DNA of 64,000 nucleotides, taken from Gemmata massiliana (GTDB taxonomy: Bacteria > Planctomycetota > Planctomycetia > Gemmatales > Gemmataceae). How positions within the stretch are numbered: position 1 is the first letter of the stretch; each line of letters begins with the position of its first letter. The notes under the pieces were generated by a model. It was given only the letters and a program-made list of their open reading frames with translations. It did no database searches and was not told the origin of the DNA. Positions 56,576 through 62,648 of this stretch are shown in pieces. The stretch lies in contig NZ_LR593886.1 of the NCBI RefSeq assembly GCF_901538265.1, positions 3,456,843-3,520,842 on the forward strand, in the 5' to 3' direction. The position numbers and the translations under genes were made by a program.

Positions 56576-57925
56576 TTATGCGCGACTAAACGCGGGTCGG
56601 CGCTCGTCCTTTTCGGTCGTGATTTCTGTGGTCGGTTCGTCGACTGAGTCATCGTTCGCGGGCGGGGTTGGCGTGGTCGGGTTCCGCAACCGGTCCACGA
56701 ATGCGGCCAGGCGATTCAGCCCTTCGCGGAGCCGGCCTTCATCGGCTGCGAAACTCACGCGGATGTGCCCCGCACCGCTCGGTCCGAACGCGCCGCCCGG
56801 ACCGACCAACACGCGCTCTTCTTTCAGCAACTTCTCCGCGAACGTGCGGCCGTCGACGTTCAGGTTCGACACCGGCACCCACACGAAGTACCCGCCGCCG
56901 GGCTGTTCCGGTTCGAGCTTCATCGCACGTAGGCGATCAAGCGTGTATTGCCGCTTCGCGTTGAACCGCTCGCTCAGGTCTGTTGCTACCGTTGGTTCGG
57001 CGAGCAACCGTGCGGCGGCCTGTTGGCACACGGGGGGAACGTAGGGCGCGGTCAGGTTGGCGGTGAGCTGACATGCGCGGACGAGGTGGCGCGGGCCCGC
57101 GAGCCACCCGACGCGCATTCCGGGTTGTCCGAATTCCTGTGACACCGACCCGGCCGTGAGCGTGAGCCGGTCCGCCCCTGGCATCGCGGCCAGAGTTCGG
57201 GCTCTATCGGGCCGGAACGCGGCGAACGATTCGTCGAAGTACACGAGCACCCCGTACCCACCCGCAATCCAGGCGATGTGTTCGAGGTCTTCGTTCGCGA
57301 GACACCCGCCCGTGGGGTTGCCGGGGTCGGAGAGCACGAGCATCTTCGCGCCGCGCATCGCGCGCTCGAAGGTGGCGGCGATGTACCGGCACCGACCGTC
57401 CTCGATCCACGTCGGCACCCACCGCACGTTCGCGTGCCGGGACTTCGTGCCCAGCGCGAAGAGCGGCGAACACGGGTCGAACATCACGACGCGGTCGCCG
57501 GGGTTCACGAACGCATCGAGCGCGGCCGTGAACGCGGCCGTGGCGCCGTGTGTCGCGAGGATGTCTGTGGACGGGTTGATGGTGCGCCCGGTGGTCTGGT
57601 AGCGGTCCGCGATGATGCGGGCCAGAACGGGGAGCGTGGTGGGCACGCGGCCGGGCGCGGAGAACGCATCGGTGCGCCCCACGCTGACGGCCCCGCGTGC
57701 GGGCGGCGCGTCCGGCGTGGGCTGGTTCAGATCGAGAATATCGAGGTTCGGGACGTGCGGAATCACCGCGGGATCGAGCAATTCATCCAGCGGCGCGGCC
57801 AGCACGCGGTCCGAATAGTATTTGAGGTACGCAGTTCCGCCATCGGTGAGGCGCCGGGCGCGCGGGGTGAACCGTGCGAGCCGCGTGCGGACCAGCAGCT
57901 TCGTGAGCCAAAAGGGAATTGCCAC
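56576..57925 (-). CDS. PLP-dependent aminotransferase homologue lacking the catalytic lysine
   Basis: The 449-residue protein is a class I/II aminotransferase-fold protein: ATHGATAAFTAALDAFVNPG, LVLSDPGNPTGGCL (PxNPTG-like), YGVLVYFDESFAAF (DxxY/E region) and GMRVGWLAGPRHLV. At the expected S-x-S-K motif the sequence is GSVSQEFGQPGMRVGW, placing Gln263 (codon CAG at 57139-57137) where the Schiff-base Lys should be. GTG 57925, with GGAGG seven bases upstream, is the start. The C-terminal 40 residues are Pro/Asp/Glu/Thr-rich. Catalysis by the normal route seems impossible; a regulatory or binding role is more likely. Confidence 0.82.
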   Translation of the reverse strand: MAIPFWLTKLLVRTRLARFTPRARRLTDGGTAYLKYYSDRVLAAPLDELLDPAVIPHVPNLDILDLNQPTPDAPPARGAVSVGRTDAFSAPGRVPTTLPVLARIIADRYQTTGRTINPSTDILATHGATAAFTAALDAFVNPGDRVVMFDPCSPLFALGTKSRHANVRWVPTWIEDGRCRYIAATFERAMRGAKMLVLSDPGNPTGGCLANEDLEHIAWIAGGYGVLVYFDESFAAFRPDRARTLAAMPGADRLTLTAGSVSQEFGQPGMRVGWLAGPRHLVRACQLTANLTAPYVPPVCQQAAARLLAEPTVATDLSERFNAKRQYTLDRLRAMKLEPEQPGGGYFVWVPVSNLNVDGRTFAEKLLKEERVLVGPGGAFGPSGAGHIRVSFAADEGRLREGLNRLAAFVDRLRNPTTPTPPANDDSVDEPTTEITTEKDERRPAFSRA

Positions 57926-58124: not shown

Positions 58125-60299
58125 ATGGCACACGAACCATCAACCGCGATCCTCGATCCGCTTCGGCGGCTCATTTCGCGACAAACGGGTAACGCACTCA
58201 CCGACGCGCAGCTTCTGGAGAATTTCGTTTCGCGCCGCGAGGAGGCGTCGTTCGAGGTGCTCGTTTGGCGGCACGGGGCGATGGTCCTCGCGCTCGCTCA
58301 GCGCGTGCTCCGTGATTCGCACGCGGCGGAAGATGCGTTCCAGGCAACGTTTCTTGTGTTCGCGCGAAAGGCCAAGTCGATCGGCCGCGGCGAGGCGGTC
58401 GCGTGCTGGCTCTATAAGGTCGCGTACCGGATCGCCGTTCGCCTGCGCGCTCGGGCTGTGGAGCGGCAACTCGGAACCGAACCGGCGGACGAGTTCCCGG
58501 CTCCCGAAGTACCTACGGACGCCGAGTGGCGCGATCTGCGACCGGTTCTTGATGACGAGATCGCGCGCTTACCGGAGAAGTACCGCGCGCCGTTCGTTCT
58601 CTGCTATCTCGAAGGCCGCACCAACGAAGAGGCCGCAACACAACTCGGTTGCCCGAAGGGAACCGTGCTGTCGCGCCTCTCGCGCGGGCGCGAACGCTTG
58701 CGGGAGCGGCTCTCGCGCCGCGGAATCGCGCTCACGGCCAGCGCGCTGGCTGTCTCCATTTCTCGAAACGCAGCCACGGCGACCGTTCCACCAACTCTGG
58801 TGCCGACCGCAGTCAACGCCGCTATCCCGTTTGCGGCAGGGAAAGCGGTAAGTGAACTGGTTCCCGCACACGTCGCCGCTCTCACCGACGGAGTGTTACG
58901 CGCGATGACGTTCAGATACGTTAAGACCGCAGCGCTCGCTCTGGTGTCGCTTGTCGTGCTAGGGAGCGGGGTTACTTGGGCGGCCTTCGCCGGTGGTAAC
59001 GCGCACGAATCGGGCGAGCCGCTGGTGCTGGTCGCGGAGTCGAACGGGCCGCCGACCGGGGAGGCCAAGGTCGTCCCGCCCGTCGAGCCTGAGCACCCCG
59101 CTCCGCCCATTCAGGGGCGAGTGACAGACATTGCGAAGGATGGGAAGTCAGTCACCATCACCAGCGTTGCGTATGAATGGTACGGCAGAAACCGCCTCCC
59201 AGAAGTCCCAGAACCAAGGGTGGTAGTGGTCAAATTGAGTGACAAAACGGTGGTGACATATCAAGACGTCGGTATGAATGGAGCAAAACTCACGAGAGGC
59301 TATTCGGCGTATGTCGAGTTTGTCGCGGGTGCAAAGGATGTTGCGGCCGCCATCTCGCTTACCGGGACAATGGAACGGCCGATGAACGGTGGCGCTGTCG
59401 GGCGTGTCGATACGGTCGCGGATGATGGGAAATCCTTCTCACTGGAGGTGCCCGGATATAGTTCCAATCCTGCGCTTACCCCTAATTCTTTCCTCCCTTA
59501 CCATTTGGTCCCACCTCTTCAGCGCGATAGAGCGTCGAAGATCGACGTTCCCTTCGACGATAAGACGGTACTTTCATTCTCAGACGTTCCGAAGGGCGGG
59601 GCTAAAATTACCCCTAATTACCGCGTACAAGTGGTGTACGCGGACGATGGAAGAACCGCCGGCAAAGTGTACTTCGAGGGCCGACTGGACTCGAGTGGAC
59701 GCGAAGCGAACCGTCCAGATGTTGCAAACACTGTCTGGGATGTCTGGCCCGGGCCTAACCTCGCACCGGTAGACGGGAAGCCATCAGATATCGCCGGCAT
59801 TGTCATGCGTGTCGCCGACGGCAAAGCCATTGTGGTGGAAGTTCCTCCCAAACCATCGGCAGAAGCTCCGACGCGGGTTGCGGTCTACTTGACCGACAAG
59901 ACCGCCGAAGTGTTCCGTGACGTACCGCTCGACGGTGCGAAAGCCGCACCGGGCATGCAAGCGCAAGTGTGGCTCGCGGACGGATCAAAGGACACCGCCG
60001 CGAAGGTGACGTACACCGGGACCACGCCCGATCGTTGGACGATCGTGACCGGGAAAGTCGTTACAGTGGCGAAGGATGGTAAATCGTTCACGGTAGAATC
60101 GCCTCCGCCCAAACGTGGTGACGCGGGCAAACGCACGGAGGTGAAACTCGTCTCGCTCACGAAAGTGACATTCAACGGGGTCGGGCCGGGAGAAGCCAAA
60201 GTGACGGAAGGGCTTAACGTTTACGCTCGGATGCTCGATGATTACCCGGACACGGCCGCCGGAATCACCTTCACGAAAGACGGCTTTACGCCCCGATAA
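58125..60299 (+). CDS. ECF-type sigma factor fused to membrane helix and extracytoplasmic repeat domain
   Basis: Residues ~30-95 (SFEVLVWRHGAMVLALAQRV, AEDAFQATFLVFARKAKSI) form sigma region 2 and ~130-190 (LPEKYRAPFVLCYLEGRTNE, GTVLSRLSRGRERLRERL) region 4. A transmembrane helix near 265-290 (TAALALVSLVVLGSGVTWAA) is followed by a Pro-rich spacer and about four repeats of roughly 80-100 residues, each with DGKS-x-x-E, then DKT..F.DVP-x-GA, then T-A-x-V-x-F/Y-x-G. Planctomycetes are known for sigma factors with long C-terminal extensions. The design suggests a sigma factor that senses an external signal itself, perhaps through proteolysis or tethering. ATG 58125 is preceded by AAGG. Confidence 0.88.
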   Translation: MAHEPSTAILDPLRRLISRQTGNALTDAQLLENFVSRREEASFEVLVWRHGAMVLALAQRVLRDSHAAEDAFQATFLVFARKAKSIGRGEAVACWLYKVAYRIAVRLRARAVERQLGTEPADEFPAPEVPTDAEWRDLRPVLDDEIARLPEKYRAPFVLCYLEGRTNEEAATQLGCPKGTVLSRLSRGRERLRERLSRRGIALTASALAVSISRNAATATVPPTLVPTAVNAAIPFAAGKAVSELVPAHVAALTDGVLRAMTFRYVKTAALALVSLVVLGSGVTWAAFAGGNAHESGEPLVLVAESNGPPTGEAKVVPPVEPEHPAPPIQGRVTDIAKDGKSVTITSVAYEWYGRNRLPEVPEPRVVVVKLSDKTVVTYQDVGMNGAKLTRGYSAYVEFVAGAKDVAAAISLTGTMERPMNGGAVGRVDTVADDGKSFSLEVPGYSSNPALTPNSFLPYHLVPPLQRDRASKIDVPFDDKTVLSFSDVPKGGAKITPNYRVQVVYADDGRTAGKVYFEGRLDSSGREANRPDVANTVWDVWPGPNLAPVDGKPSDIAGIVMRVADGKAIVVEVPPKPSAEAPTRVAVYLTDKTAEVFRDVPLDGAKAAPGMQAQVWLADGSKDTAAKVTYTGTTPDRWTIVTGKVVTVAKDGKSFTVESPPPKRGDAGKRTEVKLVSLTKVTFNGVGPGEAKVTEGLNVYARMLDDYPDTAAGITFTKDGFTPR

Positions 60300-60465
60300 C
60301 TTGGGGTATTGGGAAACGTGATTAAACTGCGGGTAAGTGTTCGTTCCGTCACAGGCGGCGCGGACACCTGCCCGCACACTTTTTTGGCACATTCGGCGGC
60401 ACTCGGGAGCGCAACTCGTTCCCGCGCTCGCGTTCCCCGCGTGTCAATGCCTATGATGACCCTAT

Positions 60466-61686
60466 ATGACCGACACTGTACTCATCGTGGACGACGAGGA
60501 ATCCGTCCGCCGGACGTTCCAGGAGTGGCTCACGACCTCGATGCCGGACGCCCGCGTGTTCGCGGTCGCCGATTCCGAGTCGGCCCTCCGGATCGCGAAC
60601 GAGCACGCCGTTGATCTCGCGGTTCTCGACTGGAACCTCGGGTCCGGGAGCGACGGGTTGCGCCTGCTCGAAGACCTCGTCGAGTTCCAACCGGACGTAG
60701 TCGCCATCCTCGTGACCGGGTTCGCGCACCAAGCGACGCCGCTCGACGCGCTCCGCATGGGCGTGCGCGACTACATCGATAAGAACCAGGACTTGAACCG
60801 CGAGACGTTCGTCGCGGCCATTCGCCGGCAACTCGATCGCATCCGCCCCGTCAAACAGCAGCGCGAACTGAACCACCGGCTCGCGACGTTCCGCGAGGCC
60901 GTCGAGAAGGTGCTGCCGATCGTACAAACGTCGGCCGCGTTCAACGACCCCGTACCGCTGCCGGCCGCGGTGAAGTCGCTCCTCCGGTTCGTGATTCGCG
61001 GGACGCGGGCCGTGGACGGGGCACTGATCGTGCGCCATACGGCGGCCGACGGTACCGAGTCGACTGTGGCTTACGGGGCCGACGGCGTCCCGCTCCCCGC
61101 GCCGCCGGTATCGTTCGGAAAATCGCTCGCCGCGAGTGTCATCAGTTTCCAGAAGCCGGTCGCGCTGGACGCATCCGACTCGGACGCGCTTGGTTCACTA
61201 GAACTGTTCCCGTTTGAAGCGAACCGTTCGTGTATCCTGGCCGCCCCGCTCCGCGTCGCGACGGATACAGTCGTGGTCGTGGAACTGTTCGATAAAGCGG
61301 CGCCCGGGTTCAGCGACGACGACCGGCGCCTCGTCATGTCCGCGGCCGAACTCGGAACAGACCTGCTGCGCCAGGCGGTCGCGGAGCGGCAAACACACAA
61401 ACTGCTGTTCGATGCGGTCGATGCGGCACTCAAGGCGACCTCAGACTTTAGCACCGCGCCGGCTCCCGCCCCAGACACGAGCGCGCCGCTCTCTTCGGTC
61501 ATGGCCAAGCTGAAGGAGGGACTGGGCGCGGACTCGAACGCGACCGCCCCGCCGGACACCACGCTGCGCCTAGTCGAAGCCGTGCGCGCCATCGCCGTGA
61601 AACACGGGCCGAGCGCGGTAGAGCACTGCGTCAGGGCGGTTAACGACCTCCGCGCACTCCTCGACGAAATCACCGGCAGCGCATGA
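60466..61686 (+). CDS. Response regulator with GAF-like domain
   Basis: This 406-residue protein has an N-terminal receiver (IVDDEESVRRTFQEW; Asp55 in AVLDWNLGSGSDG; Lys in DYIDKNQDL). A coiled segment leads to a GAF-like domain of about 150 residues (ALIVRHTAADGTES, CILAAPLRVATDTVVVVELF, FSDDDRRLVMSAAELGTDLL). The C-terminal 100 residues are Pro/Ala-rich and then helical (LVEAVRAIAVKHGPSAVEHC). There is no DNA-binding domain. The next gene, an intracellular subtilase, overlaps its stop by four bases, so the two probably act together. Confidence 0.85.
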   Translation: MTDTVLIVDDEESVRRTFQEWLTTSMPDARVFAVADSESALRIANEHAVDLAVLDWNLGSGSDGLRLLEDLVEFQPDVVAILVTGFAHQATPLDALRMGVRDYIDKNQDLNRETFVAAIRRQLDRIRPVKQQRELNHRLATFREAVEKVLPIVQTSAAFNDPVPLPAAVKSLLRFVIRGTRAVDGALIVRHTAADGTESTVAYGADGVPLPAPPVSFGKSLAASVISFQKPVALDASDSDALGSLELFPFEANRSCILAAPLRVATDTVVVVELFDKAAPGFSDDDRRLVMSAAELGTDLLRQAVAERQTHKLLFDAVDAALKATSDFSTAPAPAPDTSAPLSSVMAKLKEGLGADSNATAPPDTTLRLVEAVRAIAVKHGPSAVEHCVRAVNDLRALLDEITGSA

Positions 61687-62648
61687 TTGAGAAGGGCACA
61701 TTTGACGGAACGGCTACGATCAACGAGACCGAAGAGCGGTTCGTGTGCGAGCTGCGTCCTACCGAGGCTGTTCACCCCGTCCGGCACGCTTCCGGTTCGT
61801 TTTCTGCTGGAACTCTGATGATCGAAACGGCCCCCACAGTGTTCGACGAGATCTTCGCCCGGTTGACCCCGAACAGCATCTTCCAGGATGCCCGGGCCAC
61901 CGGGGAAGGGATCGCCGTTGCCGTGATCGACTCCGGCGTGGAACGCGCCGTACTCGAAACGAAGTTCCGCGGCGCGGGCACGTCGATCCAGCGCATCGAG
62001 GGCGCGGTGTTCCGCCCGAGCGGGCCGCCGCTCGAGTACACTGGCCACCAGTCCTCGCCGCACGGCACCACCGTCGCGGACATCGTTCTGACACTCGCGC
62101 CGCGGGTGAAGCTCTACTCCGCCGACGTGTTCGGTCCGACCGGGTCGTGTGAAGTGGAAACGGTGATCGCTGCACTGCACCACGCGATCGACGTGTGGAA
62201 AGTGAAGGTGATCAACCTCTCGCTCGGGGTGCCCGAACACAAACTGCAACAACTCCCGCGGCGCCAGCAGTTGCAGCGGGCGATCGAGGAGGCGTACTTT
62301 CGCGATGTGCTGGTGTTCGCCGCCGCGCACAACGAGCACCCGCTAACGCGGAGCTACCCGGCCGCGTTCGCCCCGCCGCTCATCTCGGTGGACAAGGGGC
62401 TGTTCGACGACCCGTTGCGCTTCGCCTACAAGTTGAGTGAACAGGTCGAGTTCCAGGCGCACAGCCGCGGGTACCTCGGCCCGTTCGCCCGCGAACCGGC
62501 CACGAGTTGGGCGACCCCGCACCTGGCCGGGATCGCGGCGCGCATCCTTTCGTTGAAGCCGGACCTGAAGCCGTTCGAGATCAAAACGATCCTGTACTGG
62601 CTGTTCCGCAGCGGGGGGAACGGTCACGCACCCGGGGCACCGGTGTAG
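61683..62648 (+). CDS. Intracellular S8-family (subtilisin-like) serine peptidase
   Basis: This 321-residue protease has the catalytic triad Asp83 (AVAVIDSGVER), His127 (QSSPHGTTVADIVL) and Ser275 (ATSWATPHLAGIAA, with SWATP in place of the usual SMATP). The oxyanion Asn lies in VFAAAHNEHP. No signal peptide, prodomain-like cleavage site or transmembrane helix is evident, so it is probably cytoplasmic. Coupling to the REC-GAF gene suggests proteolysis controlled by phosphorylation or a small molecule. Its 3' end overlaps the convergent repeat-companion gene by 25 bases. Confidence 0.85.
   Translation: MIEKGTFDGTATINETEERFVCELRPTEAVHPVRHASGSFSAGTLMIETAPTVFDEIFARLTPNSIFQDARATGEGIAVAVIDSGVERAVLETKFRGAGTSIQRIEGAVFRPSGPPLEYTGHQSSPHGTTVADIVLTLAPRVKLYSADVFGPTGSCEVETVIAALHHAIDVWKVKVINLSLGVPEHKLQQLPRRQQLQRAIEEAYFRDVLVFAAAHNEHPLTRSYPAAFAPPLISVDKGLFDDPLRFAYKLSEQVEFQAHSRGYLGPFAREPATSWATPHLAGIAARILSLKPDLKPFEIKTILYWLFRSGGNGHAPGAPV

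Follow-up and report, generated by a model that had tools for sequence, protein, structure and literature searches.

A Gemmataceae aminotransferase-fold protein without the Schiff-base lysine: a probable pseudoenzyme with a conserved C-terminal tail

To our knowledge PLP fold-type-I enzymes have few inactive relatives, and LCB1, the best known, partners an active twin. LCB1 (SPTLC1) of serine palmitoyltransferase carries no PLP lysine and pairs with LCB2, according to the accessible part of PMC3794620. In the sugar 3-dehydratases ColD, E1 and SpnQ a catalytic His replaces the Lys (accessible part of PMC8987622), while the MocR regulators contain an aminotransferase-like sensory domain (accessible part of PMC5320631). 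The accessible parts of these three articles and of PMC6522883, where the word 'pseudoenzyme' occurs in the reference list only, do not describe the family reported here. No described member of the family was found in the literature searched, a body of work outside which most subscription journals fall.

The window is the whole stretch of DNA that was analysed, 64,000 nucleotides from Gemmata massiliana. It contains, within a 10.1-Mb genome, a gene for an aminotransferase-fold protein together with the following features:

57925 to 56576, minus strand: coding sequence of the Lys-less aminotransferase-fold protein (P0001), GTG start, 449 amino acids, stop codon at 56578 to 56576
57937 to 57933, minus strand: ribosome-binding site GGAGG, 7 nt 5′ of the GTG
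57746 to 57925, minus strand: family-specific N-terminal 60 residues (PFWLTKLLVRT..., then YYSDRVLAAP)
56681 to 57745, minus strand: aminotransferase fold, residues 61-415, from Pfam, the AlphaFold model and superposition on 1gd9
57139 to 57137, minus strand: Gln263 (CAG) at the position of the Schiff-base lysine, from the codon and from alignments
57233 to 57235, minus strand: Asp231, counterpart of the Asp partnering the cofactor ring nitrogen
56759 to 56761, minus strand: Arg389, equivalent of the substrate-carboxylate Arg
56579 to 56680, minus strand: C-terminal tail, residues 416-449, with a Pro/Glu-rich linker
56579 to 56596, minus strand: terminal peptide PAFSRA, the end of the window gene
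58125 to 62648: divergent ECF-sigma-like gene, then response-regulator-like and subtilase-like genes

PF00155 (Aminotran_1_2) is the single Pfam-A match of the protein at E ≤ 0.001 (E 7.3e-36, residues 98-406), and its score of 124.5 bits against a curated cut-off of 19.7 places it in that family by homology. Comparison with solved structures by phmmer aligned SVSQEFGQPGMRVGW with GFSKTFAMTGWRLGF of 1gd9, with Gln263 on the Schiff-base lysine; SVSQEFG pairs gap-free with GFSKTFA of 1gd9 and the Gln stands opposite the Lys. The initial annotation had been made from the sequence of this stretch, and its central observation, a CAG codon for Gln in place of the Schiff-base lysine at 57139-57137, was borne out, as were the aminotransferase assignment and the strong ribosome site with an intact frame of 449 open codons. 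The nine lysines of the window protein were inspected and none takes the catalytic place. K194, the best kept of them within the 30-member clade to which the window protein belongs (27/30), adjoins the NPTG strand and is also present in Lys-bearing relatives; it is followed by K9 (25/30) and K161 (22/30). Measured against a working PF00155 enzyme, the protein lacks the Schiff-base lysine, having Gln263, and possesses the ring-nitrogen Asp (D231) and the carboxylate Arg (R389), which we take to correspond in role and numbering to D222 and R386 of AspAT.

The AlphaFold model, built with 38 sequences, has a mean pLDDT of 84.6 and a pTM of 0.84, with pLDDT below 50 at residues 424-449, 75-79 and 265-268, the last directly after Gln263. 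Alignment of the model with 1gd9 by VIA-align gave a Z of 44.2 and an rmsd of 2.4 over 372 aligned residues (model range 39-416), and the 50 PDB structural matches listed are aminotransferases and related PLP enzymes. A search of viral structures returned 21 matches at E ≤ 0.001, the named ones being mostly PLP-type enzymes. Helices are predicted in the N-terminal segment at residues 5-13, 21-27 and 31-36, with no strands in the first 60 residues, and the segment is recognisable in most Lys-bearing and Lys-less members, being divergent in L042, L152, L039 and L087. An amphipathic membrane helix at the N-terminus was considered and rejected, the hydrophobic moment of residues 4-21 being no greater than that of shuffled sequences in 9/9 members tested.

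To define the family we searched 397 genomes drawn from the class with a profile of 25 members, counting matches above 300 bits as full-score. Such matches were present in 51 of the 397 genomes, 50 of them in Gemmataceae and one outside (Pan216), and the family is thus almost confined to Gemmataceae. All 50 have a single match above 300 bits (95 Gemmataceae genomes, up to 18 candidates scored in each). The lysine has been lost in 40/51 family genomes and kept in 11/51; the lysine is also present in two lower-scoring relatives (L042 and L152, 232-250 bits), whose N terminus differs. L072 of Zavarzinella formosa is a Lys-bearing ortholog. The residues that replace the lysine across the family are Gln, His, Pro, Ala, Gly, Tyr, Ile, Val, Trp or a gap. 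The site is occupied in the window clade by Gln in 22 members, Ala in 2, Pro in 2, and Tyr, Gly, His and a gap in one each, and in the Lys-less members outside it by Ile/Val in 7, Trp in 2 and Tyr in 1. In L129 there is a one-residue alignment gap at the equivalent of residue 263, for which a Pro is an alternative reading.

Within the genus of the window, 17/19 genomes carry the gene, with no match at 1e-66 in G010 (rated 100 % complete) and G015 (68 %). Gln is present in 16 of the 17 members found, the window protein included, and His in one (L030). The codon is CAG in the window gene and CAA in the 98 %-identical L017, and Gemmata sp. IIL30 (L046) also has a 98 %-identical gene. Recurrence of the Gln in 16/17 same-genus members, as CAG or CAA, excludes a sequencing error for practical purposes. 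As 40/51 genomes lack the lysine and its replacements are varied, the common feature of the family is the absence of the lysine and not the Gln as such, although a local constraint on the nearly fixed Gln (16/17) is possible within the genus.

How many times the lysine was lost was addressed with two trees. L043 and L077 (both partial; L077 has the Lys) and L090 were left out of the alignment, and L001, L004, L006, L007, L153 and the near-copies L017, L081 and L082 were left out of the 58-row tree. Parsimony counted four Lys/no-Lys changes on the 58-row tree, in which several deep forks are open and L041 forms a long branch, and two on a thinned 41-row tree without L041. Support for the window clade was 88/97 (29 of its 30 rows, 58-row tree), and the 41-row tree places the Trp pair inside it. 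A single Lys-less clade was not rejected (AU p 0.268 with 58 rows and 0.28 with 41 rows). Parsimony therefore suggests two to four separate lysine losses as the cheaper reading, a single loss not being rejected.

The genomic neighbourhood was compared using gene names (cupin, STN, SMC, FlgI, FolC, SmpB, ECF-sigma, response-regulator, subtilase) assigned from sequence alone. Downstream, 15/52 members have a convergent cupin gene at 1.3-4 kb and 20/52 an STN-type gene at 1.0-6.8 kb. One or both lie within 7 kb downstream in 26/52 members, whose residues at the lysine position span K, Q, H, A, G, W, Y, I and V; the figure is a lower bound, the flanks being unequal and in some cases short, with as little as 1.5 kb on the downstream side. 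Neither was seen within 7 kb in the other 26/52 loci, and no neighbour is common to all. L068 is the only Lys-bearing member with cupin/STN within 7 kb; L069 has the pair at ~10 kb, and the remaining Lys-bearing members show neither gene in the flank examined. In the Ile/Val members (7/7) the end of an SMC-like gene is 0.1-0.2 kb ahead of the family gene; in the Lys-bearing L042 and L152 such a gene abuts or overlaps it, the overlap being in L042 as called. On either side of the gene, in different members, Lys-bearing and Lys-less forms thus have neighbours in common; this favours orthology over distant paralogy, and the SMC-like gene upstream both in the Ile/Val group and in L042 and L152 favours a separate loss in that group. 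The window subclade (L009, L017, L018) has no cupin, STN or SMC neighbour in the flanks examined. Upstream there is a divergent ECF-sigma-like gene, at ≤ 0.2 kb in L009, L018, L019, L020 and L025 and at 1.8 kb in L017, which suggested no mechanism.

Several further features of gene order were observed. A co-oriented SMC-like gene is directly upstream in L040, L080, L133, L135, L137, L081, L082, L042 and L152, preceded by an FlgI-like gene where the flank reaches. The ECF-sigma/response-regulator/subtilase-like trio of the window is also found upstream of the ortholog in L017, L018, L019 and L020.

Nei-Gojobori estimates of dN/dS ranged from 0.042 to 0.396 in 15 ortholog pairs, 11 in the window clade and 4 in the Ile/Val group, some dS values being high (3.15 in one pair, for which the ratio is rough). 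The protein is accordingly conserved although its catalytic residue is not. Columns were compared between 26 Lys-bearing sequences (12 from the family and 14 ordinary aminotransferases) and 40 Lys-less ones. Fixed in all 26 and still fixed in 40/40 are G127, P151, P201, P204, G206, D231 and G273; R389 is present in 25/26 and 40/40, and L332 in 25/26 and 39/40. K263 falls from 26/26 to 0/40, the phosphate Arg R271 from 26/26 to 32/40 and G97 from 26/26 to 27/40. S260 is fixed in 40/40 Lys-less sequences, in which 19/351 columns are invariant, and N203 is kept in 23/30 window-clade members. Retention of Arg271 in 32/40 and of N203 in 23/30 indicates a cofactor site that is partly eroded. The Tyr usual at 234 is already Phe in 7/12 Lys-bearing family members, and changes to the classical site had therefore set in without loss of the lysine.

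The window clade is further distinguished by its C-terminus, a feature absent from the initial annotation. A Pro/Glu-rich linker of variable length is followed by the ending [P/A]xFSR[V/A/S/T] in 29/30 window-clade proteins, the sole exception (L065) probably being frame-shifted in its assembly. The ending occurs in 0/22 other family members and in 0/500 neighbouring ORFs of at least 200 codons. The idea that an FSR ending is a general Gemmata signal was rejected: the pattern PxFSR[AV]-stop matched the genome 12 times and its reversed control 7 times, and 9 of the 12 have a Trp at the stop position or no FSR residues. Three of the 12 are true FSR[AV]-stop readings, among which the window gene is the only one to end a gene; the other two (L168, L170) lie out of frame inside other genes and end no frame of at least 20 codons.

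Outside the FSR clade an Ala-Ala C terminus, reminiscent of ssrA-type degradation tags, was observed in 14/22 members (L038, L035, L074, L069, L037, L068, L152, L042, L135, L133, L080, L040, L081 and L082) compared with 21/500 neighbouring ORFs. It is present in 8/12 Lys-bearing members, and 6 of the 14 are near relatives in one group. Two types of conserved C terminus seem to occur in the family.

We consider it probable that the window gene encodes a pseudoenzyme which has retained a ligand pocket and acts through protein contacts of its N-terminal segment and tail. By analogy with its relatives the aminotransferase-fold protein is presumably a homodimer, in which no internal aldimine could form and of which transamination would not be expected. 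The pocket of Arg389, Asp231 and Ser260 could hold a ligand non-covalently, candidates being an amino or keto acid, PLP/PMP or a PLP-amino-acid adduct. Contacts with other proteins would be made by the family-specific N-terminal segment and, in the window clade, by the putatively disordered tail ending in FSR[VA]. Selection for a role that needs no internal aldimine is well supported, as the lysine is absent, purifying selection is evident and the change is common to the lineage. To this extent the initial suggestion of selection for a non-catalytic role holds; its corollary that the Gln itself had been selected is not supported, since the site varies among orthologs. PLP or ligand sensing, which had also been proposed, fits the retained Asp231, Arg389 and Ser260, although conservation of Asp231 and Arg389 may instead reflect folding, and the conserved tail is as suggestive of protein contacts as of sensing. 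In a more specific form, which we offer tentatively and which may well not hold, a Gemmataceae-specific pseudoenzyme would detect an amino-acid-like ligand in a pocket that is either cofactor-free or loaded non-covalently, and would signal through FSR[VA] as a docking peptide, having arisen in a family with several independent lysine losses.

Loss of the lysine is by itself no proof of inactivity, as His replaces it in the working PMP enzymes ColD and E1. The protein could still be an enzyme of this lysine-independent PMP/PLP kind with another residue as base, and the conservation of Asp231, Arg389 and Ser260 in 40/40 Lys-less sequences, the His at the site in L030 and the precedent of ColD, E1 and SpnQ with His for Lys (accessible part of PMC8987622) would all agree with it. 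However, that His is confined to 1/30 clade members and is absent from the window protein, orthologs carry Ala, Gly, Pro, Ile, Val, Trp, Tyr or a gap at the site, and the nine lysines of the window protein provide no substitute, lysines being the only residues examined as a replacement base. With the phosphate Arg271 lost in 8/40 and N203 varying in 7/30 clade members as well, we regard such an enzyme as unlikely. A non-catalytic subunit that joins an active aminotransferase in a heteromeric PLP enzyme, as LCB1 (SPTLC1) does with LCB2, is decidedly unlikely. LCB1 is a known fold-type-I precedent (accessible part of PMC3794620) and the window genome (G000) offers 14 other PF00155 matches, but the five other aligned aminotransferases of G000 are < 29 % identical, no Lys-bearing family paralogue was found in the same genome (95 genomes, up to 18 candidates each) and no aminotransferase gene is conserved alongside among the loci listed.

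The conserved tail end (29/30 clade members) also weighs against a pure metabolite sensor or store with free PLP or a PLP-amino-acid adduct as its ligand and an incidental tail. Its pocket residues would be accounted for, and MocR regulators do have an aminotransferase-like sensory domain (accessible part of PMC5320631); the protein, however, contains no DNA-binding or output domain, Pfam giving PF00155 alone, and we hold this to be very improbable. That the gene is a neutral leftover or in decay is scarcely credible, being already disfavoured and contradicted by the data: the lysine is gone, its position drifts and the same-genus G010, rated 100 % complete, has no match at 1e-66, but dN/dS is 0.04-0.40 in 15 pairs, the frame is intact behind a strong ribosome site, 17/19 same-genus genomes keep the gene and 29/30 clade members keep the tail end.

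If the pseudoenzyme reading with several independent discards of the lysine were true, the ancestral Lys-bearing protein would already have had a non-catalytic job. With 40 Lys-less and 11 Lys-bearing genomes, each with one full-score copy, the constraint kept and the tail gained can be compared directly. Annotation of family members as aminotransferases on the basis of their fold is probably wrong for most of the family.

Judged from its sequence, the family would belong to a known kind, the pseudoenzymes of PLP fold type I, as an undescribed variant. With class I/II aminotransferases (PF00155, e.g. 1gd9 of Pyrococcus) the window protein shares the common fold over residues 39-416, the NPTG motif, Asp231, Arg271 and Arg389, whereas it is without the Schiff-base Lys, has Phe for Tyr at 234 and Ser for an aromatic residue at 153, and carries an extra N-terminal segment and C-terminal tail. 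GntC, the (S)-gamma-hydroxy-L-arginine cyclodehydratase (NF041364), is the top NCBIfam model for the window protein and likewise for all six relatives scanned, but at 183.8 bits the window protein falls below the cut-off of 415, as do the relatives (162.4-240.3 bits), and it has lost the catalytic Lys. ColD, E1 and SpnQ, as portrayed in the accessible part of their source, resemble it in having an aminotransferase fold with the Lys replaced, although the replacement there is a catalytic His and here a Gln that is variable among orthologs. LCB1 is likewise a PLP-enzyme homologue without the PLP lysine, yet it is described as pairing, within one cell, with a closely related Lys-bearing protein to form a heterodimer, whereas no second full-score family member was seen in the window genome. 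The MocR/GabR regulators similarly use the aminotransferase fold outside catalysis; in the accessible account they bind PLP and carry a DNA-binding domain, in contrast to the window protein, in which Pfam finds no such domain.
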